64,000 bases of DNA from Echinarachnius parma (Eukaryota > Echinodermata > Echinoidea > Clypeasteroida > Echinarachniidae): NCBI GenBank assembly GCA_037951105.1, contig JBAMJV010007110.1, forward strand, positions 50,370-114,369, in the 5' to 3' direction. This document shows, piece after piece, positions 39,218 to 63,671 of this stretch (the first letter of the stretch is position 1; each line of letters opens with the position of its first letter). The notes beneath the pieces are model-generated. The model worked only from the letters and a program-made list of their open reading frames with translations, made no database searches and had not been told where the DNA came from. The position numbers were made by a program, and so were the translations under genes.

Positions 39218-39804
39218 CTATGTTATTTCGCTATCATCAGACGAGTCAGATGCGACATGATCCTCATGAGCACCAACGGCGTCTACCCAATCATCGTCCT
39301 CTCCGTGTAATCCTGTCTTCCTTTTGTTTTCGACATGTCTTTTTATGACGTCGACGCAGTCGTGGCGTTTCATCCGCGCGAGGACGTCAGACAGATGGTC
39401 AAGACTTTTGATCTTGCCCTGCCTCTCGGCGATAGTGATCAAAGAGTCAGTCGGGTTCTGCTGCTGTTTTATCGTCTGGATGCAGTCATCCATGTCGAGC
39501 TTGTCGGCGAGTCCCTTCCAGTTGTCGCAGAATGGGCTCTCGTCGTTGAGTCGCGCGCTCAACTCGAGTCGCAAGTCGTGCTCGACGATGCGGGGCTGGG
39601 AAACACAACTGTCCGCGGAGTCAGACGAAGGCGGAGTTTGGTTCGTTATGGTGATGTTGTGGGCTACGATGACTGTACCCGGCATCTCAGGGAATGCTCT
39701 CTGACCTTGATTCAGAATGAATCGGGGAAAATTATGAACTAGTTGTCCCGGCAAGGGTACCTCTTCGACGCCGATGTCTGTGTTGCTTGCTCCAGCTGTG
39801 GGAA
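39218..39804 (-). CDS. ZU5 gene last exon: death domain and acidic tail
   Basis: Acceptor TTTCTTTAACAG; phase 1 entry; stop TAG at 39218-39220. Residues 615-695 match the six-helix death fold: LRLELSARL, W633 in NWKGLADKLDM, then LLxxIAERxGK-like helix 4-5 and DHLSDVLARMKRHD. The tail EDDDWVDAVGAHED...SDDSE is strongly acidic. ORFs on the plus strand here are shadows. Confidence 0.9.
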
Positions 39805-39997
39805 CTGTTAAAGAAAAGTGCACTTTATGAAATCGGAATGCCACAGTTGGAAGTTTGTAAAGGAATCTAGAAACATTGTCAAAACCCATAGTGGTCCAAC
39901 ATAGCGTGTTGTATTCGTATTACCAATATAAGCTTTCTATCTATCTATCTCCCAAGCTATCTATCGATCTATATATGTATCTATGTATGTATGTATA

Positions 39998-40036
<39 letters not shown>

Positions 40037-42074
40037 ATATCTATATATCTAAATAACTATCTATCTCAGTTTGACAAAGGCCTATGGCCGAAATATCACC
40101 TTAAAAATCTTTCCACGGAGTATCTTATTGAATTTCGTTGTTTTCTAACTATCTATCTATCTATCTATATATCTATCTATCTATCTATGTTTGTGGTGTT
40201 TGGAATTGAAAATTGCCCATGGAGACTTTCAACTGTATACACAGTTAGTCCCGTAGTGTCCATGGTTAGTCTAATTAGAATATCAAATATCACATCGCAT
40301 CTCATTCACTATCATTCTGGTCATTTACTACGGAATTTTCACAGATCATTGAGTGGACATTATCACATCATAGAGATGTACATTTTATAAGCCCTTCACT
40401 AGTTTTTGCAAATAACAACAAAGTTACTAGAAACCTTTACTCTACACTTAGTAAAAATATATTTCATATTCGCTGTTGCAATGACAGGCAAATATTGCAG
40501 GGCTTCCGAATGAGAGGTAAATTGTAGCAGGAACCCACATTGATATTAGATTTATCATCAGTGTTTTGTCTATTTATTCATAAAAATTCGTTGACGGATA
40601 TGTCTGATTTTCCCACAAAATGTTCATAATAACCATGATAACTGTACAAATATTGTGTTAAGAATACAGCTTGAGACTATTATCAGTTATGAAATTATAA
40701 GCGTATGTTTAGGGGCTTTTTACTTGTTGTGTTCGGTTTATTATCAGTGTGTTGTCTGATCATGCATAACAATTCGTTCTTACCCTGGACTAGGTCCGTC
40801 ACGCGGACGTCATCGTTCCCTTGTTCGATAGCCTGCTTGCTTAGAGGCACATCAGCCGATTCTCTAGTAGGTGATTTGATTTCTTCTGCAAAGCATGACG
40901 ACAACACGGACATATAACAAGGATTATCCTAGTTTAGTTGAAGATGAATAACAGTTTTGGAAAGTTACAGAAAACATTTATATCGTCCACAATAACTAAT
41001 AAATATCGTTGATTCAGTATTGAAAAAGAACTTTAAATCCGAACCTGAGCATTGTTAAATGCAGAAATATCGGAAATATTGGAAAAATCAAATGGCCGCA
41101 TACCGAAAACCATAATATGCGGACCACGTGGACTTTTGCACATAGTGTATGCACGATTCCGCGTTGGCGATCAATTTACTGTAAATCAGTTTGATAATTT
41201 TGCAAATAATATATCCATTATATAGTAGCGGTTTCCTGGCCAAATGTTTATGATAGTACAAGTATATTCTTTCACATGGTTGGTAATAAGAGTGTAATGC
41301 GTGTGGGGCGTTTCCCATTACTGGCATTTGCCTTTAAGACCCTCATAATATATATCCACACACCCCCCCCCCCCCCCCCCCCCCCCACTTTGCGCAGATC
41401 ATGAGATAATCAAGAAACAAGGTCAGTGTTATGCAACGCGGGCGAATAACTAACCTAGTTCGAAATTCGCGAACGACGATGTAACAATCCGCACAAAGAG
41501 CTGACTCGACCTGATCCGAATGGTTTTCAGTCAGGTTAGATTCGGTATCGCTCAGTCGTAGCCGATTCAACATTCAACATATTGAATCGGCTTCGAATGA
41601 TCTCCGACTGGCTCTTGACCGACAAAACAGGAGTCCTGTGGCAAGCTATTCTGAGCTGAACCGACTGAAAACCCAGTCGGATCGGGTCAAGTCGGCTCTG
41701 TGTGCGGATGGCTTCATGTAAGATGGAGGGCTTGGAAACAGAGTTTGTGATATTTTACACTTTACGGACACAGTTAGTAAAACAATAATGCACAAACAAG
41801 ATAAATAACAAAATAGAGGATACCATTACCTTCAAAATACATGAGGAAACTGACATTGCCCCTGAGGTATTGCTTCACTCGTAGGGTGATGAACTTTTCT
41901 GCTACACTCGTATCGTTTGCATCAACCCGGAACGTACATACGTTTTGACGCAAGTAGTAGAAGTTTCGTTCTTGTAATTTCTACATTTGGATCACAACAA
42001 AGAAACTATAACAAAAACAACAACAACAAATGCAACAAGAATTATACTACTACTACTACTACTACTACTACTAT

Positions 42075-42139
<65 letters not shown>

Positions 42140-42673: not shown

Positions 42674-42751
<78 letters not shown>

Positions 42752-42900: not shown

Positions 42901-42981
<81 letters not shown>

Positions 42982-43089: not shown

Positions 43090-43148
<59 letters not shown>

Positions 43149-46100
43149 TTACTACTACTACTATTAGTACTAGTACTACAACTACTACTAACCCTAACCC
43201 TAACTACCACTTTTAGTACTGATACCACTTCATCTACTAATACTGCTACTACTACGATTACTAATGTTACTACTTCTACTGCTACAGATAATAATATACT
43301 GCTACTGCTGTTTCTATCACTAGAACGATAGAACCACTTTAACCTCACCTTCGTCGCTATTTCCTGTTTTTCCTCTAGATGAATGACTTTGACATCACCT
43401 GATCCCCACCTGACCATAGTTTGGTGGCTAGGGTAAACCTTCTTCAGTTCTTCCGGTGACCCATCGATGTCCTGCATTAAAACAAAAAGATTATGATTAG
43501 AATTAAGTTATCTGTGGGAAAATCCCGGGGAGAATGCAATAAAGACATTTAGATTACTGCATGTGTTCAATGTTCAATTAATTATGTATATAAACATGTA
43601 TTAAAGTTGTATACATAATTGTTCAATTGTTGATTATTATTACAATTATGATTGAAAGTTGTGACCAGTGAGAGGCGCATTTCGAGTATGTGGTAAGGTG
43701 GAATAAACTGATTCAATTCAATTACATTTACGAAAAATAGCTTAAGCATGTTAATGCTGTAATTATTTCTATATCAATAATGAATATTTTATTTCATTAA
43801 GGCCTATTAAAGAATGATATTGCAATAAATAAAATAAATAACTTGATTATAAACAATGTTTCAATTATGAAAACAACAAAATAACAATGATATAATAGCA
43901 ACGTTAATATGACAAATTAATAAATAAATAACCATGTATTAACGTACAGCATTGAAGCCGTGCAGGGTGTCGAGCAGAAAGAGTAATACAGTGTGCGACT
44001 TTCCGCGGGGAGTAGCCCGGGGAATGAACGCCGTGCACGTGATGTTCTTGCCGATGAAGTACCGCTCGAGTTTCTCGAAGATGATCCACCACACGGAGAA
44101 GTGGCCGACGTAGAGATCGAGGTCGTGTGCTCTTACAACGCAGGTAGGGGGCTGCTGACTCGATGGCAGCTTGATCACGGAAAACGCATCAGATTCTGCA
44201 AATGCCACAATAAAATGCGCTTTGTTACTATGCAATAATCATATGAGAGTCAATATAGGGCCTAAATTTTCGATCATAATAATTATATCCCCGGTGGTGT
44301 CACTACATATTCAAAGGTGCAACTTCCCTATATGATCGTTCTCTAAGTGAAAATGACCCCCTATTCGCGGTGTTTCAAGTACATTTTCAGCAAATTATGC
44401 ACCATATATATAGCTGTAGAGCTTTTTTATATTCATCTCCGTTTTACGCCCTTTTAATCACAAAACAAGTAGGATTTGGCATACAAAACAACCCTTGTTG
44501 TTGCATTGCGAGAAAATATTGCAAGAAAAAATGTTTAGAGTCCTTTTTGTGCACAAATTACTTGTGCCTCTCAACGAAAAGGTACTCTATTTTTTACATT
44601 TCGCGAACATTGGCATGAAATTTGTACCCTTTTTTCTCATATCCACAAACGTCGTCGTCTTAAAATATAAACCCATTTCCGCGAGTATTTTATATTCGCG
44701 AACATAAACGAAAATAACTTCCCCTTTTCGCGAAATTGTGAACGATCATGCGTATACAAAACCAACGTGAAGTGACACCATGCACCGGCAGACCGGGATA
44801 TTATTATCATACGCTTATCTGCGTTTGGATTAAACACAATAAGAATTGGCAGAAAGATCGATTCTCGGATCACAATCTTACATTCACTATCAAATTCACA
44901 TAGTGGATGCCCTAAAAGGCTGGAAAAAGCATGTTTTTTAAACAATTGAGCATCATTTGTACACTAATGGGAAAAAAAAGTAATAGCTACTTAACAACGT
45001 TGGATTTGCTAAATACATTAATTTAGATTTGTTTGATGCCACTTGTTAGCAAGCACCAACGGCCGTATCATTATAATTCAGCAAATGTAATTCTACTTTG
45101 TAGTACTTATAAACTTGTGGCATAAACGGCACACAATAGTTAACACAAAGTGTGAAACTACCCGGTTACATCAACGCCCTATACCCCTTATAAATTATGG
45201 CTTAATGTTAACCTTTCCTCCTCGTGAACAGCTTGACTGGCACCCACAGGGGATTTGTGAGTATGGCGCAGTGCGGTACGGTGATCTTGACTGGGGATTT
45301 GAACTCAGAGCCTGCAGGTGTAAGCCTCAGGCCCACGGCCACGATCACATCACCTTCCTCCAACGGGAGATCGTCCGGTGGATGCACCACGGGCTCAAGA
45401 TGGACGTTGACATCGACGTCGAGTGGGATGACCAGTTTCAGACCATATTTCTTCAGCAAAGAAGCCTCATCTTCAATCTGTGAGTCGCTTTCAGCAGTGA
45501 CTAGATTTCAAATACAAAATGAGACAAGATAATTGTATTTTTTTTTCAAATAACATTTTCAATAATATTTCTGGAATAATTTGAAGGTGACACTACTGAC
45601 ATTATTGAAAAGGGTACACGTGGCTTCTTATAAACATAACTCGTCCCCGTTTCTTTAAACTTGTCAAATAGTTGTAACAATTACATTTATTATAACCACT
45701 GTGCCAACAGCCAATCGAAATGGAGCACTAAAGCCGTTACAATGATTGGACATCTACACATTGAAACGGGGCACTGATTAATACGTGTAGAATATATCAT
45801 ATTTTGCTTAGCCAGAACAAACCCACATTAGAAAATCAATATGTTAGTAATAACTTATTTTTATAAAACTTTAGCATTCTGTATTCGTATTAGTATTACA
45901 AATTTGAGCATAAGAAATGTTTCTGTTTTGTAATTTTTCCTTTTCGTAATAAAGATATTAAAGTCAAACCTGTCTATAGCGACTGCTCAAGGGACCGGCT
46001 AAAAGTGGTCGCTATAGACAGGTGGTCGCATTAGACAGGCCATTTTAAATTTCTGGTCGCACATTGTGCATGTTATGCACGTGTGTAATTAAGAACTAAT

Positions 46101-49100
46101 GGGCACGAATGCCCTTTGTTTATGAGTCCGAAGCACTTCGTGTTGGTAATTACCCAGCTAGCCACCTGACGTCGTGCCATCGTTGGGCCGATGTCATTTT
46201 CGTTGTAAGGGGACGTTGGGCCAACATGCGACATGCGACGTCACCGAGACGTTAAAATGTCCGCCAGCCCAACATCAGCTCGGCGTCTTTTTTTAATGCT
46301 GGCCCAACGTCATTTAGCGATTTCGGACCAACATCAATTATTGACAATGGCCCAATGTCAGTTCTAACGTAGGCCCAACATCGATTCCTGACGTTGAGAG
46401 AACATCAAGTTTTGACGTCGGCCCGACGTTAAAATGTCCGCCAGCCTAACATTGTCCCAACATCATTTTGTGATGTCGGGCAAATGTCAATTTCCGACAA
46501 TGGCCCAACACCGAATCCTGACATAGGACAGATATCAAATTCTGATGTGGGCTCGACGTTAAAATGTCCGCCAGCCCAACATCGTCACTACGTCATTTTG
46601 TGATATTGGCATAACGTCTATTTCCAACAATGGCCCAACATCAACTCATGACATTGGACCAACATAACATTATGATGTCGGCTCGAGGTTAAAATGTCCG
46701 CTAGCCCAACATCGTCACGACATCATTCTGTGATGTTGGTCCAACGTCAATTTCCGCCAATGGCCTACTATCAAATCCTGACGTTGGGCCAACATCAAAT
46801 TCTGACGTTGGCCCGACATTAAAATGTCCGCCAGCCCGACATTAGCCCAACGTTATTTTTTATTGTTGGCCCAACATCAAATCTTGACGTTGGCCCAACA
46901 TCAAATCTTGACGTTCGCCCGACGTTTGAATGTCCGCTAACCCAACATTGGCCCAACGTCATTTTCTGATGCTGGACCAACATCAAAATTTGACAATGGC
47001 CCAATGTCAAATGGCCAACGTAGGACCAACATCAAAACGTAAAAAGAAATTAGAAAACATGCATAGATTCCACGTCCGATCCATGCATTTTGTTTAACCT
47101 TTACACACATTCATTCATAAATAAATCATAATTCTATAAATATCCTATTCCTATACCTATTGCCTACTCCTAAACCTATCATCCTATCGTCCTACAAACA
47201 TAGGTCGCAATCGGTATACTATATATACACCTCTTCTTAGCATGTATGTTTTGTAATAGTTAGTATTTGTAGAGCGTTGAATTTGAAATAATCCACCTTC
47301 AAATCATATTCATAACACTATTTAAGGTGTTATTTATATTCTTATATATCCTTCTAAATTATATACAGCAGCAAGGACATGACAAAAGTATATTTTTTAA
47401 TATAAATAATTCCAAAAATCGAAAATTTTCATTTCACTTACGATCGCTTATAATCGATCATGAATTTCCCGATAGCAATACTTCTTTTTTTTTTACTTTT
47501 GAATTACTAATGTTTGTAATCGATTAAACGAAATTCAATTCAGTATAGATTCTCAAAGCAAGTTAACAAAAATATAAGTACCCAGCTAGCTAACTGACGT
47601 CGGACCGGTGTCGGCAGGTCTTCGGCAAGATCGCGGTCGGCAAACAGACGTCGCGCCAACATTACGCCAACGTCGAATTTAAGTTGGAGGTTTTAGAAAT
47701 GAAATAAGTCGGAAAATGGTTGTAGTTGAATATCGTGCCGATGTCATTAAGTTGACGAAAAAAATACGTCTCAAATAAAACGTCGCGCTAAAATCGCACC
47801 AATGCCGAAACTGGTACCAATTTAAGAGCTTGATAGAGGGTTGTAATATTAATGTTGGGCCGATGTCAATAAACCAACATGAATATGACATCTCAAATAT
47901 GACGTTGGGCCAATGTTGTACCGATGTCGGAATATATATCATTTTAAGAGGTCGGTAAATGGTTGAATGTGGAATTGATGATGGAGGATGTTATTAATTG
48001 GACATCAATATGACATCACAAATATGACGTCAAGCCGATATCGCGCCGATGTCAGAATTGGCAGCAATGACACTAGTCGGCAAATAGTCATGAAATCGAT
48101 GTTCAGCCGATGTCAATATTCTGACATGAATATGTCATCTCCAATATGACGTCGGGATAATTTCGCGCCGATGTTGGAACTGGTAGCAATTAAAGAGGTC
48201 GGTAAATGGTTGTAACATTGATGTCGGACCAATGAGTTTTATTGGATATCCATATGACATCTCAATTATGACGCCAAAGCGATATCCTGCCGATGTCATA
48301 AATGGCACCAATGAAACTAATCATTAAATAGTCATTAAAGGGGCCCTGCAACCCAAATGCATGTTGACATCTGTTCATCTGTATTAGTGTACACATTCAA
48401 TATTTGTAAACGGTTTGTGATTTGTCAATCACTGGTCAGCTACCATGCTATTGTGATTAGCCTAATCACAATAGCATCACACGGTTGAATAGAATACCAA
48501 CTCACACAACTTCAATTACAATAGCTGTTGCTATGTCAGAAGAAAAGCACTGTCTAAGCTATTGCATGGAGGTATGCAGGGCATGATTTTGTGTGGATGT
48601 TCTTTTTGTACTTTCATCTTTTGTTAATCTCATGGTAGCTGACCAGTGATTGACAAATGATGTCACTGCAGGTCAACAATAGAATTTGCTCTGGAGGGTT
48701 TTTTAGGAGGTGGGGCTTAGCAACATGAAGACAAATAAATGATAAAATGTTTAAAAATATACAAAACATATTTGGGTCAAACCGTTTACAAATATTGAAC
48801 GTGTACACTAATACAGATGAACAGAGGTCAACATGCATTTGGGTTGCAGGGCCCCTTTAAATGGATGTTGTGCCGTTGTCAATAATTCGACATGAATATG
48901 ACATCTCAAATATAAAATCGGCCTTCTATCGCCCCGATGTTGGAACTGGTAGTAATTTAAGAGGTCGGTAAAATGCTGTGAAATTGATGTCGGGTCACAG
49001 TTATTAATTAGACATAAATATGACATCCAAAATATGACTTTGGGCCTATACCGCACAGATGTCGGAACTTTACGAAATTTTAAAGGTGGGTAAAAGGTTG

Positions 49101-52100
49101 TGAAATAGATGTCGGGCGGATGTCATTACTCCTACATAAATATGACATCTCTACTATGACGTCAGTCCGATATTGTGATGATGTTGTATCTGGTAGCAAT
49201 TTAAGAGGTCGGTACATGGTTGTGAAATTGATGTCTGGCCAATGTTATTAATTGGACCTCAATATGACATCTATATATGATGACGCCAAAGCGATATCCT
49301 GCCGATGTCAGAACTGACAGCAATTAAACAAGTCGGCAAATGGTCATTAAACTGATGTGGTGCCGATGTCATTAATCCGACATGAATAAGAGATCTCAAA
49401 TATGACGTTGGGTCAATGTTGTACCGATGTCGGAACTGGCGACCATTTGCCGGCTTGTTTCATTGCTGCCAGTTCTGACATCGGCAGGATATCGCTATGG
49501 CGTCATCATTGAGATGTCATATTCATGTCTAATCATTGACTTCGGCACAACATCAATTAAATGACCATTTGCCGAGTTGTTTCATTGCTGCAAGTTCTTA
49601 CATCAGCCTGACATATTTATCACATTCATGTCTAATTAATAACATCGGACCGATATCAATTTTACTACCATTTACCGACCTCCTTAATTGCTATCTTTTC
49701 CGAAATCGGCGCGATATTAGCCCGACGTCATATTGGAGATGGCATATTCATGTCCGACTATGGACATCGGCGCAACATCACTTTTATGATCATTTGCCGA
49801 CTTGTTTCATTGCTGTCAGTTCTGACATCGGCAGGATATCGCATTGACGTCATCATTGAGATGTCATATTCATGTCGGATCATTGACATCGGCTCAACAT
49901 CAACTTAATGACTATTAGCCGACTTGATTCACTGCTGCCCATTCTGACGTCGTAGGATTTCGGTTTGACGTAAAAATTGAGATGTCCTATTCTTGTCTCA
50001 TTACTAACATTGTCCCGACATTAATTTCACAACCATGACTGACCACTGACTGAATAATTGATGTTGGGTCGAAATCGCAAAATGACGTTTGGCCAGCATT
50101 AAAAAAACAAAAACGCCGCGCTGATGTTGGGCTGGCGGACATTTTTACGTCGCGGCGACGTCGGATTGTCAAATTTTGATGTTGGTCCAGCATCAAACGT
50201 CGGGCGAACGTCAAGATTTGATGTTGGGCCAACAATACAAAATAACGTTGGGGTAATGTCGGGCTGTCGGACATTGTAATGTCGGGCCAACGTCAGAATT
50301 TGATGTTGGCCCAACGTCAGGATTTGATATTGGGCCATTGGCGGAAATTGACATTGGGCCAACATCACAGAATGATGTTGTGACAATGTTGGGCTAGTGG
50401 ACATTTTAACCTCGCACCCATATCATAATGTTATGTTGGTCCAATGTCATGAGTTGATGTTGGGCCATTGTCAGAAATTGACGTATCACAAAATGACGTG
50501 GTGACGATGTTGGGCTGGCGGACATTTTAACGTCGAGCCCACATCAGAATTTGATATCTGTCCTATGTCAGGATTTGGTGTTGGGCCATTGTCGGAAATT
50601 GACATTTGCCCGACATCACAAAATGATGTTGGGACAATGTTAGGCTAGTGGACATTTTAACCTCGCGCCCACATCATAATGTTATGTTGGTCCAATGTCA
50701 TGAGTTGATGTTGGGCCATTGTCAGAAATTGACGTATCACAAAATGACGTGGTGACGATGTTGGGCTGGCGGACATTTTAACGTCGAGCCCACATCTGAA
50801 TTTGATATCTGTCCTATGTCAGGATTTGGTGTTGGGCCATTGTCGGAAATTGACATTTGCCCGACATCACAAAATGATGTTGGGACAATGTTAGGCTAGC
50901 GGACATTTTAACCTCGCGCCCACATCATAATGTTATGTTGGTCCAATGTCATGAGTTGATGTTGGGCCATTGTCAGAAATTGACGTATCACAAAATGACG
51001 TGGTTACGATGTTGGGCTGGCGGACATTTTAACCTCGAGCCAACCGCGATAAGCCGACATCCGGCCAACAACTTATGACATCGGCACGACGTCAGGTGGC
51101 TAGCTGGGTATCGATGACATGAACTATGTATAGGCTAACTGTATTTATTATTTACCTTTTTTAATTTCGACCTCCTCTGTACTTTCGAACGTAATTTTTA
51201 CGAGTTTTGGTGTCATCGGAGGAGAGCTTCCCTGATGAGTTGGAGACGGTGGTGGTGGAAGTAGCAGCCCTTGATCAAAAGACGCCGACTGTCTCATTGG
51301 AGAGCGAGCTTTGTCTTCTCGTTGTTTCCCTCTCTCTCGTAATGGTGGGTTAGACCTTGCGTGGCTAGCCACGACCTGGTGACGAACCGGGGTGGATCTA
51401 CTATCTGAAAAAGACTTGACAGGACAAAAAGTAACATTTTAAATGGAATGAATGAAATATCCTATAAAAACAAAGAACGTATGGACGAAGAGCCTCTTTT
51501 TAAACCAAAATTCTCGAAACTCAGAACTACTGTTAGAAGTCACGCCAGTTTTGTTATTTATTTATTTATTTATTTTATTTATTCATGTTTTCTTTAAAAA
51601 AATACAGGGTGGGCAACCTTAGTTTAAAAACTGCTTTACAGGTGCGCCCTGTATACAGATACAAAACGATTACAATCGGCATAATAAGTAAGCTACGTAC
51701 ATTAAACAAACTAAAGTCAACATATATAATAAACAAACATTAAAATACATCTACACAACACAAATAAATAAACAGGCTTATATAACTTTACACAATCAAT
51801 AAAGAAAAGAAAAAGGGATAAAAAAAGAGAAGAATCAGAATATATAATTAATATATAGATTCATAATTACTTATGAAAATGGAAGAAGAATTAAAGAAAA
51901 TGATTTTATTCATACTTTTCGTTTAATTATAGAAAACAGATACCAAAATGAAAAGAATAAACAAAAACAACGCTTATTATCTCCATGATTGGAATCGATT
52001 TATTAGTTACTTGTGAATGATATGTTATATTTGTTCTGTTTGTAATTATATACTGATTTGTGAAATTATTTTGAAATAAAGAAGACCTGATGTAGTTTCA

Positions 52101-55100
52101 ACAAAAAAAAAGAAAAAAAGAAGAGGTAGAAAATCAACTGGGAGCGAGATAACATAACTGAGGGGTTAGAGGCTATTGAAATAAACCACCGTGGAACCAA
52201 TTTGCTTAGGACACGTCATCTAGTAAGGATTAAATTTACACTATAAACAAAACTGGACTAGACATTAAAGGGTACCACCAGATAGAGATTTATTTATTTA
52301 TTTATTTATTTATTTTGGTATACATTTCAAACTGATCAGCAGTGTACATTGAACATCAAAACATACATAGTATAAATAATACAATATATCAATTGTTACA
52401 ATCGAATTTAAATGAATTGGAACATTAATGTTAAGTACAAAATTTACAAAAGTAAATCACTATAAGATAAACAAAGCTACACTACACAAAGAACAAATAT
52501 CAAATCATTGTGCATAATTGCTAATCAACCACATTTACAACAATTAATTATATACAGTAATTCATAACTATATAAGTGATATAAAGTAATTCATAATTGG
52601 AACTGTTCTAAGTTATTAATCACCAAGCAATTAATTCATTATAATATATTTATCATTTATACCTATCAGCTGAATACCTATTGTGAAACCATTATTATAT
52701 GAGTGCAAGACTATTCTAGTCATATTAATATTTCAATTAAAATTAATTAAGCATAATTTAAAAATTAATAATTATGTACGTATTACAAGTTTAATATCAA
52801 TATTTTACCAAATTTCAAGGTACCAAACTGCAAGTTTATGAGTATTTGTCATATTACATAAATAAAGAAACAATCTAAGTCTACAATAATATCATCTAAA
52901 TGATCGTTTAACTATACATGGGATACATAAGACCAGTACTTCATTATTGCGTCCCGGTTTTTAATGGAAATATTACTCAAGAGCAAATATTAAATTTAGA
53001 ACGAATTCAAAAGAGAGTCCTCAGAATAATATTGGGAGGTGACTATATAACATATGCCACTTTTGCTCTTTCATTGTGCAATTTAACTACATTGGAAGCA
53101 AGAAAAAAAACCTTTGTGAACAGTTTATAATATCTTTAGAAAACACCCTGTTTTTAATGATTGGTTACCAATTAAAAGAGAAAATAGTGTTCTTTCTTAC
53201 CTTGTTCATATTTTAAACAATATATAATTCAATTTTTGTATAATCATTTTCTTTTCTTATGTAAAATTGTGTATTTTGCTGTTTGCATATTACTCATTAT
53301 TTTTTTCAACTTTACAACTTTTAACATGTATCATGCACTTTACAAATGTAACAAATGTACAATTCAACCTTTGGCTGGCAACTATTTAATTAAAGTACCT
53401 AAAGAATACAACGTACTTTGACACTTATTCCATAGTTGATGACTTGAAATATAGGTCTGCCGAAAAAAAATCCATGAAAATAAACACAGTAGTGATTTAA
53501 GACTAGTTTTCTAATGCCAAATCTCACTTAGCAGCCAGTTTACGCCCCACCCACATTTAGCCGTCCGGAATCGGCAGCGTGATCGACATGTGATTGACAA
53601 TTCATTGGCTAACGTCATGACGCGTCATCTACAGAATTTAGTTCATTAGTCCGTTCTTTAGATGACGTCACATTTTGGCGATTTAAAAGGAGCGTTCCCA
53701 GGACAATTAGATATTTACTAATTACCCCAAAATTGATTGATTTCATGAGAAATGACTGCCAAATTCCTTTTCTTCGGGAAAAATTACATATAGAGAGCCG
53801 AATTGTGAAAATTAGGCCATCTAGACGCTGTAGTTCCTTTAATAAACTCTTTTAAAATTCAATTCAATTCAACACAAATAACTTAATTAAATTATACCAA
53901 GCAATGCAAATCATTACTAACAAAACACCATCCAACCAAATTCATGGTTTTAATGTTCGTGCCAAATAGGGGATAGTTGATTTACGATATCTTTCTGTGT
54001 TACACTTAATTGTACACAATCCCGACATGTTTCGTAATTGTCTTGTACATGTGAGTCGTATACAGCCTAGCTTTCGATCCTAGCAGGATCTTCGTCAGGG
54101 CACAAATGACAGTAACTACAGAAAAAACACAGAATATATACCAACATAAACACATGTATGGAAGGGGGGCTGGAAAGAGGAAAGGAGGCGGAGACACAAA
54201 ACAATGAAAGCAACTGTGAGTGGGTGAGTGTCAAGACTGCTTGACCAATCAGGTAAAAACAGGCATGGGTGGGTCCTTAAGTGGCTGCAGTCAAAGAAAA
54301 TGTGATGAGAGTGTAAGGCTTAGAGAAGAATAGAGGTAGGGAGGATCAAAGAAATAAATCAAGAAATGGAAAGAGACATGTGAACAAAAGACAGTTGATG
54401 AGGTGTGGGAGTGCACTGGGGCATTGAGAGGGGAGGAACAATAGAGGGGATTATGAGTGTAGGGGATGGGAGGAGAGGATTAGGACAAGGAAAGTGAAGT
54501 GAAGTGTGTTGCAGGATCGGATGAATAGGATAGGCGAGATCAAAGGACAGGGAGTTTAAAAGAGATAGTGAACAAAAGGAAGCCTAAATAGGTAGGTGAT
54601 CAGAGGGAAGGTGGAGAGACAAATGAGGGTGGAACAATATGATCAAAATAGAGGTGGAACTATGCATGATGAGAATGTGGATGTATATGAATAAGCCCAT
54701 GTCTATGGACAGTGTACCTATAGAGAGAAATTAAATGCAAAAAGTAAAACATATTAATAAATTAACATGAATATGTGTATGAATGGTGACAGTGTATATA
54801 ATGTAATCTCAAAGGAAACTAAAATGAATATATGGGGAAAATAAAATGGGAAATAAGAATATGAATAGTATGTGGAACAAAGTAAAGTGTCGATATGGGG
54901 GGTGAAAACAAACAAATGGTGGTGCAGACGATGAAGGGGAGATGCAAATGTTAATCACTGCCTTCTTGGATGTTGAGACCACGGGGATGAATGGTGCAGA
55001 GACGTCTTATCCAATACTTTTCTCTGCTGGAGCAGAGTGTGTCCGGGCGGTTACCTAGAGATTCTATTCCTTGTAGAATCATGTCAGAAATGGAGTGATT

Positions 55101-58100
55101 AGGTAGGTTGAAGTGGTTGCCGACTGGGGCGTCATGTTTGGAGGTGTGGATGGTGGATCTGTGTCCGTAAAAGCGTCTCTTGAGGGTGTTCCTGGTTTCG
55201 CCTACGTACTGCATGCCACAGACTCTGCACGTGATAAGATATACAACATTGGTGGTGGTGCATGTGATGTGGACCTTGGTATGGTGAGAGATGTTGTTGG
55301 AGTGGCTGGTGAAGGTTTCATCCTGATGGATATGTACCTGACACACAATGCATCTGTCGGCGGTGCACTTAAAGGTGCCTTGCTGTATGGGAGAGGGGTT
55401 GTTATTGGGGGTGGGAAGTTCAGCTCGAACAATGTGGTCCTTGAGGTTGCGAGGGCGTCTGTAGGCTAGGATGGGGGCATCAGGGACAGCCTGTTGGAGG
55501 CGATCAGAAGTGTGAAGAATGTGGTGATTGTTAGTCAATATGCGACGGAGGGGAGGTAAGTTGGGATGAAAGGTGGTCACTAGGGGTGTGACAACAGTGG
55601 TGGTCTGGTTGGGAGTCTTCTTCTTCAGAACCTCGGATCTGGGGAGAGAACGAACTTTGTTAATGGATAGATGAACTGCTTTGGCACTGTGGCCCCTGGC
55701 AGTGAGGTGTGTCTTGAGATTTCTGGCATGGAGGGAAAAGTCAGAGTCCTTGGAGCAGATGCGGCGGAGTCGAAGGGCTTGGCTGTAAGCAATACCTGTT
55801 TTGCAGTGGCGGGGGTGACAGCTAGATGAATGGAGGTACTGGTGGGTGTCTGTGGGCTTGGTGTAGAGACTGGTGGTGATCTGGCTGTTCTCCTTCTTGA
55901 TGGTGACTTCAAGGAAGTGGGTTTCATCTAGGGAGAAGTCAGAAGTGAACTTTATGGTTCTGTGGAAGGAATTCATGTGGTCAATGAATGTGTGTAGGCT
56001 CTCTTCATCGCTGGTCCAGATGAAGAAGACATCGTCAATGTAGCGCCACCAAATCCATGGGCGGCAAGGTGCTGAGTCTAACATTTGCATGTGTCTTGTA
56101 CATGTACTAGCTTTGGAAGGAGGGAGTAAGTGCCTATGTTTTAGAGATTGCAACATTTTTGTTTTCTATGTAAAGAGAGTGATGGTAGGTTACAGATAGA
56201 CAACGCTACACTGTATGATGTGTAGTCTATACCCAATATAATTCTGAGTGCTCGTTTTTGAACAAACTCAATTGTGTTGGTTTGAGCATCAGTAATTGAT
56301 GTATGCCAAACTGGACAGGCAAACTCTAAAATGGGTCTAATGTAGCATGTATAGACGGTTACCATATCCGTAATGGTGTTTTCGACCTCCTAATAATACA
56401 GAGAGTATACAATCTTCGGGATGCTTTAGAAACTATTTCTTGAACATGCAAGTTCCACTTCAAATCATTTTGAATTGTGACTCCTAACAACTTAAAGTGA
56501 GAAACAACATTCAATGGAATTTAATTCAATGTTATATCAGTGCGTGGGTTCATCTGCCGGAGGAAATTTATACAGAGTAAGTTACATTTAGTAGGTTTAG
56601 GCAATACATCATTTTGTTGGCACCAATATGAGATATTATCCAGACTATTTTGAAGAGTAGTAGGCTGGTTTCGTTTAATCACTTCTCCAAGCGTCAAATG
56701 GTCAACATATTTCCATCTATGTTCAGATTCATCAGCTGCATCATTAACAAGTACCAAAAATAAAATTGGGCCTAGTTTAGTGCCTTGCGGCACTCCACAT
56801 GTTGTTTGCAACAAGGGTGAGTTGTTGCCACCAATTTTAGTACACTGAGTTCTATTACTGAGAAAACTACAAATGATTGGTATAATGAATCTTCTGACAC
56901 CCAAATCAATCAGTTTCTTAATTACAATATTGTGGTTTACCCGGTCGAACGCTTTAGTAAAATCTATAGTGGTTAAGTATGCATAGTGCCCAGGTTTGTC
57001 AAGACCATGCAGCACAAAATTAAAAAGATCAACCAAGTAATGTGTAGTCTAAGATCCTTTCACATTTCCAACTTGCTTCTTATCAACATGTTCAACAATG
57101 TCATCAACTACCCATTTTGCAATGAACGATTCCAATACTCTCGCAAATATTGGGGTGAGAGAGATGGGTCTCAATTGATCAAAGGAGTTAATGTTTTTTT
57201 TCCCCTTTGGGACGGGGGTGATTGTTGCTGTTTTCCAAATGTAGCTCTCTTACATCAAAGACAAATCACAAATGAACATACAAAACAAGTCTGTGATCCT
57301 GAAAGTACTTCTACATCGCCAGGGAATCATTTTTAATATCACCTGTCAATCATTCTGTCAATGGGCCGTATGCATACAAAGAAGCAATTGCTTGTGCTAG
57401 CCTTTTGCTTGAATCGGTATGCATAAAAACAAGCAATTGCTTGCAAGCAAAAGCATTTGCTTATAAGCATAAGCAATTGCTTACTGCTCGTAAGCAATTG
57501 CTTACCAAACAAGCAATTACTTAAAACCGTATGCAGAAAACGACCCTTTTACTTGTCTTGATAAGCAATTGCTTGCTTTTTTTCAAGCACCTCCAGACCA
57601 GATTGAGCTCTTGCTTACTCAGGGCATTCGCGTTTAAGGATCACATTTTCATACCGTTTCAGGATGATTACAAGCTCCCTATTCCAGAGGTTATGTTGTG
57701 ATATCATATTTAATCAAATTCCTGTTATTTTAGACTTTTTACGGCAATTTTTGTCCATCGATCTGCACAGAACGTATTCTAATTTTCTATCGTTATACAT
57801 AATTTCAAAATTTACATTTTGTAATTTTCTTTTAGGACCAACGACCATAAATTTCGTCTTTCCTGAATGTATATACATATTATTATTTTCCAACCAGTTT
57901 GTAATCAAATCAAAGTCTTTCTGAAGATTATTCTGTACTTGAGACAAATCAAATGTATTATTAAAAACAACTGTATCATCTGTATATAATGACAGCTTCG
58001 TTTGTGAATGAAATTTCAAATTGCACATATCACTAATGAACAAACAAAATATGAGGGGACCTATATTATGAATCCTTGGGGGACCCCGGTCTTAACTGTA

Positions 58101-61100
58101 ATACAATCACTAGTACATTGTTGCATTGAAACATATTGTTTTCTTCCAATTAAGTAATTCACAAACCATTTACACTCGCTATCGCTTATTCCATAATAAA
58201 CCATCTTTTCAAGTATCTTTTTATGAGGAATTACATCGAATGCTTTCTTAAGATCTAACGATATTGCACCAATCTGCTTATTATTCATGTTTTCAAGTAA
58301 ATAATCAACAATATCAGTCACGCAGGTTGCTGTGGAATGTGATGGTCTAAATCCAGACTGTTGGGGTGATAACATTTTATTGTCATTAAGGTACGAGTAA
58401 AGTTGTGTGTGTACTGCTTTTCCTAATATTTTCAAAATGGGTAAAACTGAAATTGGTCGAAAGTTACCAATTTTATATGAGCCTCCTTTGTGAATCGCTG
58501 TGACTCGGGCCATTTTAAAGTCCATCGGTATTTCAGAGGTTTGTAATGATTTGTTAAAAAGAAATGTAAGAGGTCGGCATATAAACTCTGCTGCTAATTT
58601 CAATAGTTTCGGATGAAGACCATCTAATCCCACAGACAATCAATGTTGAGTAATTCTTTTCTTACAAATTCAACAGTTATATCTTGGAATCTAAACTGTG
58701 TATCTTTCCGAAACAAGGTTCCCATACAATTAACGTCATCATTGTTGCATACATTGTTCCCTATTCGTTCACTAACATTACTGAAAGCTTCATTTAACTT
58801 ATTCACGATTACATTGTTATCAGTAATAATTTCTCCATTTACAGTAAGATCAAAGTCTGTTTTGCCTTTCTTTCTGGGTAGAAGGTCTTTTAAAATCTTC
58901 CAGTTTGTATTAATGTCATTTCCATTTGAATAAACTCTTACTTATAAAAATCTCTTTTTAAATATGTATTCAAATTGTTTGCTCGATTTCGGAAGTGTTT
59001 AAATTTATTCCAATCTGAGTCCAATTTATTTTTCTTAAATCTCTTTTTAAATAGTATCTTTCTCTTGCCAGTTGTTTGAGACACTCATCGGTTAAGGTGG
59101 TATCTCACCGAGCTGGAGACTAGTTGGCGACCAGTTGGCGACTCAGTCTCCACTAGTCGTGGAGACGTCTCCGCGACGTCGCCGCGACGTCTCCTGGAGA
59201 CTAGCCGGGTCTGCGGGGAGTCGCGGGAAAATCAAACATGTTCGATTTTTTTGGAGACTCTCCATCAGTCGCGGAGACTAATTTTGTCCGCGACTGGGGA
59301 GACGTCGCGGCGACCTACTGGAGACCAAGGCGACTGAGAGGAGACGTTGCGGAGACGTCTCCGCGACACTACTTAACGTTGCTTGACCCACTTTAGTGAC
59401 CACGTGACTGAGTTCGTTATCATTTGGTACAGTTTGTTTCTGCTCCCATGGATACGTCGCGGAGACGTCTCCGAGACTTCGGCTTGGTGAGATTGCAAAC
59501 CATTTTCGGGTCTCCCGAGTCGCCGCGACTACCGCGACTGATCAGTCGCGGCAGTCGCGGCGACGTCTCCGCCGGTGAGATACGCACTTTATCCATGGTA
59601 CTCCTTTCTGTTTTTTTCTGACAGAGATAATTGGGGCATGTGTGTCACTCAACCGAATAAACAACAATTTAAAACGGTCCCACAGACTTTGAACGCTGTT
59701 CTCATTTGAATAAAACCCAACCCATTCTATTTCACTAAAATCTCTTCGAAATTTCTGTCCATCAAAATAACGGAACGACCGAAACTTGCTTATCTTTGGT
59801 AAATTGGAACGACATTTGCATGACCCTTTAATCACAAAATAAATCAATGAATGGTCACTGACACTAGACTCCACAATTGTTACAGAGTGCGTGACAAAAA
59901 CCAAATCAATCAGCGTCGTACTGTGAGGTGTTATTCTTGTTGGTTCTTTTATAATCTGCAGTGGCGGATCCAGGGGCGCGGGGGGGGGGGGGGGGGGGGT
60001 TAGGGGGTTTAACCCCCCCCCCCCCCCCCACCCCCCCCCCCCCCCTTGGGCTGCGAAGTGAAAATGTATCAGTGAAAAAAAGTGAAAAAAAGTGAGAGAA
60101 AAAAATCACTTACGGGGGTCCAAAATTAAAAAATTAAAAATCGCCGAGAGGGGGGACACCCCCCTCTCGGACTCTCCCCCCACTCGCCGCTACGCGTCTC
60201 GGACTTCGCTCCGCATCGTCATTGGGTCAACCCCCCCCCCCCCCTTAGCAAAAAGCTAGATCCGCCCCCTGATCTGTGTCAGCTGAGTTGCAGTACACAG
60301 TTCATGAACTTTCTTTGACAAATTATTTTCAGTCATCATATTGCAAGTTAAATCGCTAAGTATCATGACATATCAAAACATTATCTATAGATTCTTCAAA
60401 GTGATTAAAAAATGAGGTGTTAGAATCGGGTTTACGATAGCAATTACCAACAAATATGGAGCTACTATTCGTACGTTTTATTTCAAGCCACATCTACTCT
60501 AGGTCATTAATTTCAAGGTCTTTTCTCCTTACGTACGTGTATTTATTTTGTATAAAACAACCAACACCACTTCCGAGACCATTTCTGTCTTTTCTTTCAA
60601 AAGTAAAACCATATTGATATCGTATCATTTGATATATCTTCATTTAACCAAGTTTCAGATATGCCTAAACTAAACATCATATGGGTTTTGTAACAGAAAA
60701 TTGCTTAAGTCTACAGTTTATTTCGCAGACTCCTTATATTCAAGTGAGCTAATTTGATTCTCTTTTCCTTTGAAAAATAGGATACACTTTCTCTATTTTC
60801 CGATATTGATAAATTTATAACATTAGTGTTTGTTTGAATTATACAATGTTCATGATTTGTGTACATAAATATGGAGAATAATTAGTTGAAAACAAATATA
60901 AATGTTTTGTTTTCAATGTTACAGTATATGATTGATTTTAGTCTCATTATAGTTCAATATTGCTAATATATAAATGGAAAATACTAAAGTACAGATGTAT
61001 ATGTTTCAACAATGACATACAAAATCTAAACAATATGAAACGCAGATGCGGAAAAATAAGATCGTTGACATGTTTGTGTATTATTCAGAAGACTGGTACA

Positions 61101-62123
61101 AATAAGACGAAATGAACCGAAATTAAATGCTTTGTTATCCAAAATATGACTTATGAGCAAAATGTTAAGTTATATGTAAAGGAACGGAGATAATAACAAA
61201 TAAAAAGAAAGTTTATAACAATTTGTCTCATCTGTACTTACCGACATCGTTTTAGATCGTTGTCGTCGTTGTTTTTTCCTCGTCGGAGGGGGGTTCAGTT
61301 CTCTCTCGACGTTCCTGAAGATATCGTACCATCTGGCCACCTTTCTTCTGTAAATACAGGTGGATAATTGCAAAATTAGCTAATGAAACTGGCCTTTGCC
61401 AATAATAAAAAACACACCTCTGTATTCCTTGGACAAAACCATAGTTGAAAGAATTGTCAGGAAACAATCCAACCAAGGCAATACTTCACAGATTAGGAAG
61501 AATTTCTTACCAATTAGGGTGATAGAAGATGGGTTCTTTTTTTTTATCAAAGGACGATGGGATCATTCGACACGGCTATACATCACTTTCATGACAAATA
61601 ACTAGTAAAATATGGTAATGACTAACTTAATTTCCTTATCATTAACGACGATTATGATAACTCCCAAAAGGCTATGATCATTAACATACATGACAGATAT
61701 GATGTGAATGACTTACATCTCCGGGTTTAGGTAGATTAGTTCCTTTTTATGAACAAGAATGAGGACGACCTCAGGATAAGGATTCCCTGCTTTCGTCAGT
61801 TCCATCTTGAATACACGTAGCCTCCCAGACAGCGAGAAATACCCCAGTGGTTCTTTGACATAGACATCTCGCTGGCACTTGTGATAGCTTAACCGGAATT
61901 CCCGGTCACCCAGTTTTTCTAGAACATGGTAAAAATTCCTCTCTTTCTGCAAATTTGGGAACAATATAAAAAAGTTATAATGTTACAAAAACCTGTACAT
62001 TGCTGAGATTTTTTATACCCGTACAAATTCGGTTCATTGTCTAGAAGATGTGAGATAATTATCTTAATTATCATAACTATCATGGTGGTATTTTACTAGT
62101 AGAAGTATTATTATTATTATTAT

Positions 62124-62198
<75 letters not shown>

Positions 62199-62270
62199 CA
62201 GTAGCAGTAGTAGTAGTAGTAGTAGTAGTAGAAGTAGTAGTAGTAGTAATAGTAGTAGTAGTAGAAGTAT

Positions 62271-62317
<47 letters not shown>

Positions 62318-62439
62318 TAATTAGTTGTATTTTTAATAGTAGTAGTAATATTATTATTAGTAGTAGTATTTAGTAGTTTTTGTTGTTGTTGAAGTATTAT
62401 TATTGTTACTATTGTGTTACTACTACTACTACTACCATG

Positions 62440-62508
<69 letters not shown>

Positions 62509-63671
62509 GCTACTACTACTTTTGATTGCTCCAAAAAGCGGTAAGATGACGCGCCGCTGCTTGGTGACTTTTTTTGGGGGGTCTTGCGCATATTTTAAAA
62601 CAAAAATTTTGGAAATCGGACCTACCGTTACGAAGTCACGTGACCTTTTGTCTATGCATGTCTGCCCGAAAATCGCTCAATTTCGTGATTTGTGTACAAA
62701 AGATATGGAAATATAAGTTTTCGCAAAAAGAGGTATATCATTGGTTATTTGGTCTTGTTTACATTTCATATGTTTGTTTTGGGGTTCAAAATTCGTTAAA
62801 TTATAGTTAGAAATAAAAAAAAAAAAAAAAAACAATAAACTACATTAGTAAAAAAACAAAGAAATACATAAGAAATTATACAAACAATAGAAAACATAAG
62901 GAAGAACCTGGCTCTTCCAAATTTTGATGTCGTATTATCATTCCAAATGCTCTAAAGACTAAAGAATATATATAGTGAAAACCAATGTTTAATTATGAAG
63001 AATATATGATTTATGGGTACAAATATGAATTTTATGACCTTATTTGCATAAATTACCATAAATATGCAAATTAATGAATTTTACAAAAAATAAAATAACC
63101 ATTGTATCTATACACTTCACTTATCATGCGTGCAAATGTTCACGGTGATCGGCCCGCTTCGCGGCCGAGATCTTAATGGGGGAGGGGGGGGGGGGGGGCA
63201 TAATGCCCCCCCCCCCCCCGCCCCCCGCCGTAGAAAGACCTCAATAGCCCGGCCTTTTTAGGGTTAAAGAGAGGAAATGAGCTATATCGTTAGAGTAGTA
63301 CTATGCGATGTGTTGGTTTTTTGTTTGCATCATTTGAATCCTTGTCACTGAAAACTTCAATTTTTAACCAAATTGGTGTAGGTAGAATCCTAATAGTGTA
63401 TGGAATGTTTTACTGAACTGAAATATGTCTGCAAAAGAAGGCCGACATTTTTCTTTAGAGTTAAAACTGAATGAAATAATACAAATTGGCAGCGTTGCCA
63501 CAATGTGGTTCATTTCCGTGACTTAATTCTACTCGGTTTAAATCAAAGGTAAGATCGGAGCATTACGTTAAAGTCAACAGTCGTCCCGTCAGCCTGCGTG
63601 TCGATATGTTTTCCCAGCATTATGAAGCCCTGACAAAGTATTTCAGCTTTGGCGCCAGCTAGAGAGGCCAT
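39218..63671 (-). CDS. ZU5-UPA-death domain protein with novel N-terminus
   Basis: Ten exons in order: 63567-63671, 61717-61946, 61242-61347, 51156-51414, 45213-45500, 43948-44195, 43349-43471, 41830-41980, 40784-40885, 39218-39804. All have GT-AG sites and matching phases and give 732 residues. Residues 1-112: unassigned alpha/beta region; 113-233: basic then Ser/Pro-rich linker; about 245-370: ZU5 (GLKLVIPLD, VAVGLRLTPAGSEFKSPVKI, TVPHCA), closing with His361-Phe362-Ser363; about 370-520: UPA-like (CTAFIPRATP, ITLRVKQYLRG); 615-695: death domain (NWKGLADKLDMDDCI, LARMKRHDCVDVIK); 706-730: acidic tail. No signal peptide or membrane segment, so a cytosolic PIDD/UNC5CL-like adaptor rather than a netrin receptor. 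Exon 4 could alternatively start at 51404, but only 51414 keeps the frame with exon 3. Confidence 0.86.
39935..40190. repeat. (CTAT)n microsatellites in intron 9
   Basis: CTAT repeats at 39935-40065 and 40148-40190, separated by about 80 unique bases. Confidence 0.9.
41341..41390. repeat. Poly-C tract
   Basis: C tract of about 26 bases at 41362-41387 in intron 8. Confidence 0.9.
41488..41709. mobile_element. MITE family A, copy 4
   Basis: ATCCGCACAAAGAGCTGACTCG pairs with GGCTCTGTGTGCGGAT. It has the same core as the other three copies and lies in intron 8 of the ZU5 gene. Confidence 0.75.
42044..43170. repeat. Cluster of (ACT)n microsatellites in intron 7
   Basis: ACT tracts at 42044-42165, 42674-42751, 42900-42978 and 43085-43170. 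The second and third are two halves of one tract split by an inserted element. A short CCCTAACCCTAA at 43193-43204 is too brief to be a telomere relic. Confidence 0.93.
42752..42896. mobile_element. 145-bp MITE inside an (ACT)n tract
   Basis: AAGGGGCCGTGGAACC and CCGCGGCCCCTT are inverted ends. The ACT repeat continues on both sides, so it marks an insertion. The G-rich phrase GGGGGGAGGGGGCAGCC lies next to the left end. Confidence 0.7.
43472..43947. other. Intron 6, nothing recognised
   Basis: AT-rich, no repeat family recognised. Confidence 0.5.
43948..44195 (-). CDS. ZU5 gene exon 6: HFS motif, start of UPA
   Basis: Acceptor GTGGCATTTGCAG and donor GTACGT. The exon reads from SDAFSVIKLPSS through DLDLYVGHFSVWWIIFEKLE to CTAFIPRATPRGK. 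In PIDD1 and UNC5CL the HF-S bond at this place is cut autocatalytically; here H361, F362 and S363 are present in the same setting. Confidence 0.85.
44196..45212. other. Intron 5, possible weak MITE
   Basis: TATGATCGTTC at 44331 and GAACGATCATG at 44740-44750 are inverted, and AACTTCCC occurs on both flanks, suggesting a decayed 420-bp element. Nothing else seen. Confidence 0.35.
45213..45500 (-). CDS. ZU5 gene exon 5: ZU5 domain core
   Basis: Acceptor GAAATCTAG and donor AAAG|GTTAAC (the only donor nearby giving the required phase 1). The reading LKKYGLKLVIPLDVDV, LPLEEGDVIVAVGLRL and KSPVKITVPHCAILT is the hallmark ZU5 pattern (IPxGA-like strand, then GP/TPxGxxFxxPVxLxxPH). Confidence 0.9.
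45959..46046. mobile_element. Fragment of pogo-like MITE
   Basis: AAAGTCAAACCTGTCTATAGCG is followed by the complementary CGCTATAGACAGGTGG within 60 bases. It matches the sub-terminal parts of the element at 1259-1778. Confidence 0.6.
48335..48860. mobile_element. TTAA MITE family F nested in the foldback
   Basis: TTAAAGGGGCCCTGCAACCC and its complement bound the element with TTAA at both edges. The end repeats extend about 85 bases, followed by a second inverted pair, GTCAATCACTGGTCAGCTACC and complement. It interrupts an arm of the 46151-51110 element, so it is younger. Confidence 0.9.
50210..51050. repeat. 251-bp tandem units in the foldback's right arm
   Basis: GTCAGAAATTGACGTATCAC recurs at 50470, 50721 and 50972, a period of 251. 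Copies differ at very few positions, implying recent duplication. Confidence 0.9.
51415..52870. other. Intron 3, A/T-rich with (TTTA)n tracts
   Basis: TTTA repeats at about 51553-51590 and 52285-52313 look like retroelement tails. No coding part is seen until 52900. Confidence 0.5.
52871..53420 (+). mobile_element. Non-LTR retroelement 3' fragment
   Basis: The reading YIRPVLHYCVPVFN, LERIQKRVLRIILGGDY and FALSLCNLTTLEARKK is the C-terminal segment after the reverse transcriptase in Jockey/CR1-like elements. It resembles the minus-strand fragment at 56141-56365. It breaks at 53130. Confidence 0.75.
53421..54005. other. Intron 3, nothing recognised
   Basis: A weakly palindromic part around 53630-53670 (GATGACGTCAC, GACGCGTCATC) is the only feature noted. 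Confidence 0.4.
54010..56156 (-). mobile_element. 5'-truncated Penelope-like element with GIY-YIG endonuclease
   Basis: A 401-codon ORF (54951-56156) starts inside the reverse transcriptase palm (WWRYIDDVFFIW, residues 36-47). It continues through the thumb (LEVTIKKE, SLYTKPTDTHQYLHSSSCHP) and a Cys-rich linker (CTADRCIVCQVH) to a GIY-YIG nuclease (VVYLITCRVCGMQYVGETRN at 304-323, RRFYGHR). This order is diagnostic of Penelope-like elements. The N-terminal half is missing; the edge abuts a non-LTR fragment at 56150. The C-terminal half has no stop or frame break. The 3' region carries a hammerhead-like core. Confidence 0.92.
54071..54098 (-). ncRNA. Hammerhead-ribozyme-like core in Penelope 3' region
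   Basis: On the minus strand CTGACGA, then a perfect GATCC/GGATC stem with a TGCTA loop, then GAAA. These are the conserved core strands and stem II of the minimal hammerheads known in Penelope-like elements. The expected UH cleavage triplet after a short stem III is not clear (G follows the U), so the copy may be inactive. Confidence 0.45.
56141..57330 (-). mobile_element. Broken non-LTR retrotransposon (reverse transcriptase)
   Basis: From upstream to downstream the minus strand reads WKTATITPVPKGKK, LRPISLTPIF, then a stop, LTTIDFTKAFDRVNHNIVIKK, CGVPQGTKLGPILFLVLVND and KYVDHLTL, followed after a gap by RPILEFACPVWH and VQKRALRIILGIDYTSY. The catalytic YxDD box is YVDH, so one catalytic Asp is lost. 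Together with the internal stop this copy is dead. Confidence 0.85.
57367..57600. repeat. Cluster of AAGCAATTGCTT palindromes
   Basis: AAGCAATTGCTT or close variants occur at least six times in 200 bases, bounded by CGTATGCATAC and CCGTATGCAG. Likely a small inverted-repeat element between two retroelement fragments. Confidence 0.7.
59093..59593. mobile_element. CpG-rich MITE family G inside the retroelement
   Basis: GGTATCTCACCGAGC and GCCGGTGAGATACGC are inverted ends; TTAA marks the left edge and TTTA the right. The body repeats GGAGACGTCTCCGCGACGTC in both orientations, so it folds back on itself and is far richer in CpG than its surroundings. Confidence 0.75.
59959..60271. mobile_element. 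Poly-G foldback MITE (CAGTGGCGGATC ends), copy 2
   Basis: CAGTGGCGGATCCAGG and TAGATCCGCCCCCTG are inverted ends and ATCTG is repeated directly on both sides (954-958 and 272-276 of the respective kilobases), a 5-base target duplication. It shares CATCGTCATTGGGTCAA and TTAGCAAAAAGCTAGATCC with copy 1. Confidence 0.85.
60791..61241. other. Intron 3 start, nothing recognised
   Basis: AT-rich sequence between ZU5 gene exon 3 and the endonuclease start of the retroelement. Confidence 0.5.
61242..63671 (-). CDS. ZU5 gene exons 1-3: unassigned N-terminal domain
   Basis: Exon 1 (35 residues) starts at an ATG with A at -3 and G at +4 and reads MASLAGAKAEILCQGFIMLG. Exon 2 reads KERNFYHVLEKLGDREFRL then GYFSLSGRLRVFKMEL and EVVLILVHKKELIYLNPE; exon 3 continues IRKVARWYDIFRNVERELNP then a Lys/Arg-rich run. 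Alternating strands followed by one long amphipathic helix resemble a PH-like fold, but I do not recognise the family. Confidence 0.75.
62108..62520. repeat. (TAG)n and (ACT)n microsatellites in intron 1
   Basis: Imperfect TAG repeat at 62108-62340 and its inverted form ACT at 62416-62520, so the pair can fold back. Confidence 0.93.
62535..62720. repeat. Dispersed repeat shared with 18801-18960
   Basis: GATGACGCGCCGCTGCTTGG, GTCTTGCGCATATTTTAAAA and AATCGGACCTACCGTTACG-like sequence parallels the earlier copy. Confidence 0.55.
62810..63267. mobile_element. Poly-G foldback element, copy 2 (left end lost)
   Basis: The right end reads AGGGTTAAA. The body matches 29461-30016 (AATAAACTACATTAGTAAAA-like A-rich part, a G tract facing a C tract across CATAATGC). 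Only the right TTAA remains. Confidence 0.65.

Follow-up and report, generated by a model that had tools for sequence, protein, structure and literature searches.

Several proteins that place ZU5 and UPA domains before a death-fold domain cut themselves. PIDD self-cleaves at an HF/S motif after each of its ZU5 domains, and CARD8 and NLRP1 do so at SF/S (PMC3210808), while the UPA segment drives self-oligomerisation of NLRP1 and CARD8 fragments (PMC7794386). Expanded ZU5 proteins are on record for sponges (PMC3482391), and expanded TRADD-N proteins of marine invertebrates include UPA-ZU5 and FIIND fusions, for which PIDD-like autoproteolysis has been suggested (PMC8195603). Here we describe a ten-exon ZU5-UPA-death gene model in a 64,000-nucleotide stretch of the echinoid Echinarachnius parma, which we call the window; it covers positions 50370 to 114369 of contig C7101 (JBAMJV010007110.1) and runs to the contig end at 114369, in an assembly of 1.2 Gb and 14,790 contigs (GCA_037951105.1). 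Judged from sequence, the gene appears to be a chimera, its exons 1-4 coming from a family of PH-like/PDZ genes and its last six from an ankyrin-ZU5-UPA-death gene minus the ankyrin repeats. Of the individual readings, one functional gene that unites both halves is the most probable, at a little short of even.

Compared by features, unaligned, the window gene shares with PIDD1 the order ZU5, UPA (likely here) and death and, in its putative UPA exon, the HFS motif of PIDD self-cleavage. PIDD1 has leucine-rich repeats and two ZU5 domains, whereas the window gene has one ZU5 stretch, no leucine-rich repeat match and a PH-like head. The FIIND proteins NLRP1 and CARD8 resemble it in placing a ZU5-UPA module, self-cutting in their case (PMC3210808), before a death-fold domain, but they carry a CARD in place of the death domain, an SF/S motif and no PH-like head. 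When we searched PDB sequences with the 499-residue tail of the model, UNC5B came first (3g5b, E 0.0028, through the ZU5 and death stretches), and three more matches followed at E 1 to 2.1. UNC5B lacks HFS at the aligned position, and UNC5 receptors have an Ig/thrombospondin ectodomain, whereas exons 1-4 of the window gene gave no such Pfam match. Because sponge ZU5 expansions and TRADD-N proteins with UPA-ZU5 or FIIND fusions are on record, the kind of protein is already known; the domain combination is new, and among the open-access PubMed Central papers found, no title or abstract start described PH or PDZ together with ZU5 and death.

Gene model and ZU5-UPA-death tail

The original prediction held that ten exons with consistent phases encode a 732-residue protein, and splicing these exons on the minus strand, from 63671 down to 39218, gave an open frame of exactly that length. 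A 698-residue frame was also open when the tentative exon 9 (40784..40885) was skipped, which makes that exon optional for an open frame. The phases are consistent in that the frame stays open across ten exons; exon 4 (51156..51414), a Pro/Ser/Arg-rich linker, fits it only through a weak acceptor, CAAG at 51414, with a score of 1.4 on the simple matrix used for splice sites. Low scores were also obtained for the exon-1 donor (-0.8), the ZU5 acceptor (0.2) and donor (-1.0), the UPA donor (-1.1) and the exon-8 acceptor (-2.1), the model's best being the donor of exon 7 (6.9). The 5' end of the model is not secure, because exon 1 lies only 329 bases from the contig end. Given that exons 1-4 recur in order at contigs C3952 and C3229, and that the ZU5, UPA and death exons each recur in other loci, we conclude from these comparisons that the ten-exon arrangement is more than chance.

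Both the ZU5 and the death domain of the original prediction scored above their Pfam cut-offs in the tail: ZU5 (PF00791) at 2.5e-5, with 29.0 and 24.9 bits in two scans against a cut-off of 21, and Death (PF00531) at 2e-8, with 36.2 and 34.7 bits against 22.6. ZU5 is encoded by exon 5 (45213..45500, minus strand, as are all exons here), and exon 10 (39218..39804) carries the death domain (Pfam Death 6.6e-9) and the stop codon. Between them, exon 6 (43948..44195, the first part of the region), exon 7 (43349..43471) and the tentative exon 8 (41830..41980), whose phase fits, likely encode UPA, as their position, the HFS motif and a recurring exon suggest. Exon 6 contains the peptide GHFSVWW, with HFS at model residues 361-363 (44095..44103), so that a PIDD1-type HF|S motif, a candidate site of autoproteolysis, is present after ZU5. 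We scanned 19 loci for HFS with a regular expression and found it in a UPA context, judged by eye, in six. Four of these are stretches of the locus and its counterparts, among which two overlap; the fifth is on C1047, and the sixth is on C12846, within the UPA-like stretch of a distant copy. The remaining 13 loci, where the stretch may stop short of the UPA exon, were uninformative, and we took further hits to the pattern to be unrelated.

Over most of its length the tail appears to be under constraint. Between loci, the ratio of nonsynonymous to synonymous substitution rates (dN/dS) of ZU5 was 0.18-0.30 (10 pairs, L040 left out). Between the window and its counterpart on contig C3910, we counted 25.5 nonsynonymous against 17.5 synonymous differences over ZU5, exons 6 and 7 and the greater part of the death exon, with exons 8 and 9 left out. 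The corresponding ratio of proportions of differences (pN/pS) was 0.44, with a binomial p of 0.005-0.013 according to how the counts are rounded. The two copies diverge in the final residues of the death exon. For the head, maintenance is less clear.

Proposed parent families of the tail and the head

Each half of the gene shares ancestry with genes elsewhere in this genome. In the search with the ZU5 exon, for which the best 150 of 341 candidates were scored, we found nine full copies, the window included (81-100% identity), and an incomplete copy where contig C1082 ends (64%), with the next listed match at 47%. Exon 6, used as the UPA exon, gave 11 matches, consisting of the window, nine close copies (69-94%) and a distant one (37%), and the C3910 copy of exon 7 is 98% identical. 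The death exon gave 50 matches, 13 of them close with the window counted, and three of the 13 contain in-frame stops (C5101:66481, C5101:110817 and C4722:59960).

Upstream of the ZU5 exon of C4722 lies an exon with 12 Ank stretches (Ank_2 2.9e-90), and a genome search with it, in which the best 91 of 2165 candidates were scored (E 1e-30), listed ten close copies (at least 74%), on C4722, C11338 (four), C1082, C1047 (two) and C5101 (two), the next listed match being at 40%. This exon ends 3.6-12.7 kb upstream of ZU5, on the same strand, in all seven subfamily loci elsewhere. Its open frames have 1,589-1,738 residues at six loci, and 1,220 and three times 456 residues at C11338, and some matches contain a stop. 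The genes on these five contigs match the window gene at 81-86% in full ZU5 exons (64% in the partial one), 79-89% in UPA and 61-76% in death, with UPA and death matches found on C4722, C1047, C5101 and C11338. They carry an upstream ankyrin exon, whereas the window gene lacks one: among the 91 candidates scored there was no match on C7101, C3910 or C2968, and no ankyrin exon was present in the window, in the fetched C3910 stretches or in the other loci fetched by then, apart from the query's own. C2968 is not judgeable in this respect, since the contig ends 2.6 kb upstream of its ZU5. Across the six fetched ankyrin-ZU5 loci, DNA homology with the window reaches back at most to 45,874, within the intron that precedes ZU5. 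At one of the ankyrin loci (C11338:23814-31665), four close copies of the ankyrin exon, each of 1.3-1.4 kb and with one TAA, stand in a row at a spacing of about 2.2 kb before one ZU5 exon.

The head belongs to a second, small family. Exon 1 (63567..63671), with 35 codons and an ATG start, contains the first part of the putative PH-like domain, exon 2 (61717..61946) its core, and exon 3 (61242..61347) its C-terminal helix with Trp118, followed by a basic linker. In-order copies of exon 1 are 100% identical in C3910 and 63% in each of C3952 and C3229. Searched genome-wide up to E 1, exon 2 gave eight matches: the window itself, C3910 (100%), C3952 (75%), C3229 (76%), C2968 (66%), C4955 (26%, E 0.06) and C3910:81763-81980 in two pieces. 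Exon 3 also recurs in paralogs, and exon 4 has four matches in the genome, in the window, C3910, C3229 and C3952. At C3952 and C3229, exons 1-4 occur in the same order and on the same strand and are followed by one more exon-like stretch and two PDZ-like exons, a label that rests mainly on a GDQLLQVN stretch (Pfam PDZ_6 0.031, under the cut-off); C4955 shares exon 2 and an exon-3-like stretch, in that order, with the window. These genes thus continue into PDZ-like exons, whereas the window gene does not: there is none after exon 4 in the window, and the six genome-wide matches of the second PDZ-like exon lie on C3229, C3952 and C4955 (four), none on C7101, C3910 or C2968. The four PDZ-like exons of C4955 are spread across one 220-kb contig, which suggests a tandem array of PH-like/PDZ genes. 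Exon 3 is duplicated in C3229 (stretch positions 4127-4237 and 5552-5662, 62% and 65% identical to that of the window).

The N-terminal residues 1-147, which the original prediction called novel and could not assign, therefore belong to a small family within this genome. Residues of about 9-131 probably form a PH-like domain, followed by the basic linker. A profile of five head sequences, compared with 177,635 distinct PDB sequences up to E 10, matched a single chain, the PH domain of DOCK9, at E 0.45 and 0.33 with two versions of the alignment. Trp118 is invariant in all five aligned copies; an invariant tryptophan in the C-terminal helix is a hallmark of PH domains. The predicted absence of Ig, thrombospondin and leucine-rich segments agrees with our Pfam scans of exons 1-4, in which none of the three matched, and a receptor ectodomain in exons 1-3 found no support there. 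Pfam matches to DUF6314, TrkA_C, enterotoxin and secretin were under the cut-off and taken as chance. We also rejected a full PH-like-PDZ-ZU5-UPA-death gene: C7101, C3910 and C2968 have no match to the PDZ exon, and C3952, C3229 and C4955 have no listed ZU5 match, nor one in their fetched stretches; C3229 ends 4.6 kb past its second PDZ-like exon, and there a ZU5 exon could lie beyond.

The join between the halves and its rival readings

The two halves meet in the intron between exon 4 and ZU5, where a foldback element occupies the interval 46152..51109, its limits being the points at which colinearity with C3910 stops. The listed arms span 46233-50986, and the longest arm pair is 286 nt at 93% complementarity. 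The inverted arms contain minisatellites with unit lengths of about 121-130 and 122 bp, and the element lies exactly between the two C3910-colinear blocks. From 64,000 to 51,109 C3910 is 98.8-99.9% identical to the window, except where C3910 has 5.4 kb inserted, with exons 1-4 at 97-100%, and from 46,152 down it is about 94% identical. In C3910 the interval between the blocks measures 23 kb and is partly C3229-like, including an exon-like stretch after exon 4; its ZU5, UPA and death exons lie 24-31 kb beyond exons 1-4, on the same strand. The order of head, then tail, on one strand is thus kept in C7101 and C3910 despite different intervening DNA, and the phases of the exon-4 end and the ZU5 start agree, which supports a chimera. 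An additional unit lies on C2968, where exon 2, a match of 17 residues to exon 3 and a death exon share one strand. We considered a tandem duplication of the intact unit, for which the repeated exons 2, 3 and death of C2968, with no listed ZU5 or UPA match, are weak support only.

Several observations count against a chimeric gene. A stronger exon-4 acceptor, TTTTTCAG at 51404, 10 bases downstream, scores 4.9 but shifts the frame, with a stop 36 residues on; in both paralogs (C3952 and C3229) the exon-4 acceptor TTTACAG is in phase, unlike in the window. The exon-5-like stretch that follows exon 4 in C3910 has an end phase that reads as a misfit to ZU5, so that skipping would be needed. Exon 8 has a weak acceptor in the window, and in C3910 it runs into an in-frame TAG when read from the same acceptor. 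C3910 could bypass this stop by using the AG within it as a later acceptor, but the window lacks an AG there, so that one of the two copies has a doubtful exon 8. Constraint on the head is weak or absent, with dN/dS of 0.58-0.62 for exons 1-3 and 0.88-1.51 for exon 4 (three pairs each), and ZU5 alone differs between the window and C3910 by five nonsynonymous and one synonymous changes. The Pfam profiles for UPA, which the original prediction had named, and for PH were unmatched, in the 499-residue tail and in all five head members, respectively. In the further units, finally, C2968 lacks a listed ZU5 or UPA match, and the second exon 2 of C3910 (81763-81980) is broken over two frames.

The alternative that survives best is that the window holds two adjacent, unconnected pieces, namely a truncated 5' PH-like/PDZ remnant whose PDZ exons were lost, beside a ZU5-UPA-death gene that has no head and begins at an undetected start of its own; the ten-exon model would then join them only by a chance fit of phase. 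The out-of-frame strong acceptor and the weakly constrained exons 1-4 speak for this reading, as do the cheapness of a one-in-three phase match and the C3229-like DNA that C3910 keeps past exon 4 to just before the first PDZ-like exon (C3910 42405 matches C3229 66,196, and the exon starts at C3229 66,402). We regard it as a serious but doubtful possibility, given that exons 1-4 are free of stops in the frame used and nearly identical in C3910, that their order with the tail is kept in two contigs, and that C2968 again combines exons 2 and 3 with a death exon. An ankyrin start exon is also missing from the window and the fetched C3910 stretches, other start exons not having been searched for.

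A decaying chimera or pseudogene locus without a product overlaps the other readings, so that the likelihoods given here are not mutually exclusive. With all ten exons open in the window and the pN/pS between both copies pointing to constraint over most of the tail, we think it unlikely, although it would account for the shifted exon-4 acceptor, the TAG in exon 8 of C3910 and the poor acceptor of that exon in the window, the neighbouring unit that lacks a listed ZU5 or UPA, and the stops in three of the 13 close death exons, each of the three located on another contig. A recombinant haplotype or misjoin at the foldback element is possible because identity falls from >98% to 94% there; that the whole gene is an artefact of assembly or of mixed haplotypes at 51,109, with exons 1-4 and ZU5-death drawn from two places and joined at the repeat, would fit this step in identity but is very unlikely, given that the separate contig C3910 also has exons 1-4 and then ZU5, UPA and death.

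Returning to the chimeric gene, the suggestion in the original prediction of a lineage-specific death-fold adaptor is reasonable in the form of a PH-like head on an ankyrin-ZU5-UPA-death tail, and not with a head that defies assignment. By analogy with the known systems, the PH-like head and basic linker would direct the protein to a membrane or a binding partner, and the ZU5-UPA module would self-cleave at HF|S, as PIDD does. The UPA-death C-terminal fragment would stay bound until released; once freed, it would cluster via UPA and recruit death-domain partners, leading to cell-death or NF-kB-type signalling. We tentatively propose, as a rather improbable extension, that the gene encodes a functional lineage-specific death-fold sensor, derived from a self-cutting ZU5-UPA-death protein by exchange of its ankyrin repeats for a PH-like membrane module, as part of an NLR-like autoproteolytic immune repertoire that diversifies by head swaps in a genome where many ZU5-coding stretches follow ankyrin repeats. 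If one transcript spans the gene, a head swap would have been caught with both parent families in the same genome, and the idea of invertebrate ZU5-UPA-death genes as a modular self-cutting immune repertoire would become directly testable.

Wider ZU5 repertoire and neighbouring features

The genome contains at least 150 ZU5-coding stretches over the Pfam cut-off, 149 of the 150 free of stops, in a scan that scored the best 150 of 427 first-look candidates and may count allelic contigs twice. So large an expansion of ZU5 may deserve more notice than the chimera. More distant ankyrin matches were listed on 26 contigs; on 12 of these, comparison with the ZU5 match lists places a ZU5 exon 1-8 kb downstream in the same orientation.

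Two of the three retroelement frames in the window (54954-56165 and 58064-58639, both minus) lie in intron 3 of the gene, the third being at 34504-34929 (plus). They comprise two reverse transcriptase frames and one GIY-YIG open frame, which we take to be of Penelope-like type. On the plus strand, tail to tail with the death-domain gene, are a short-chain dehydrogenase exon at 20682-21221 (adh_short 2.1e-14) and, at 32423-32731, a possible carbonyl-reductase-like C-terminal exon, recognised by reading, with no Pfam match.

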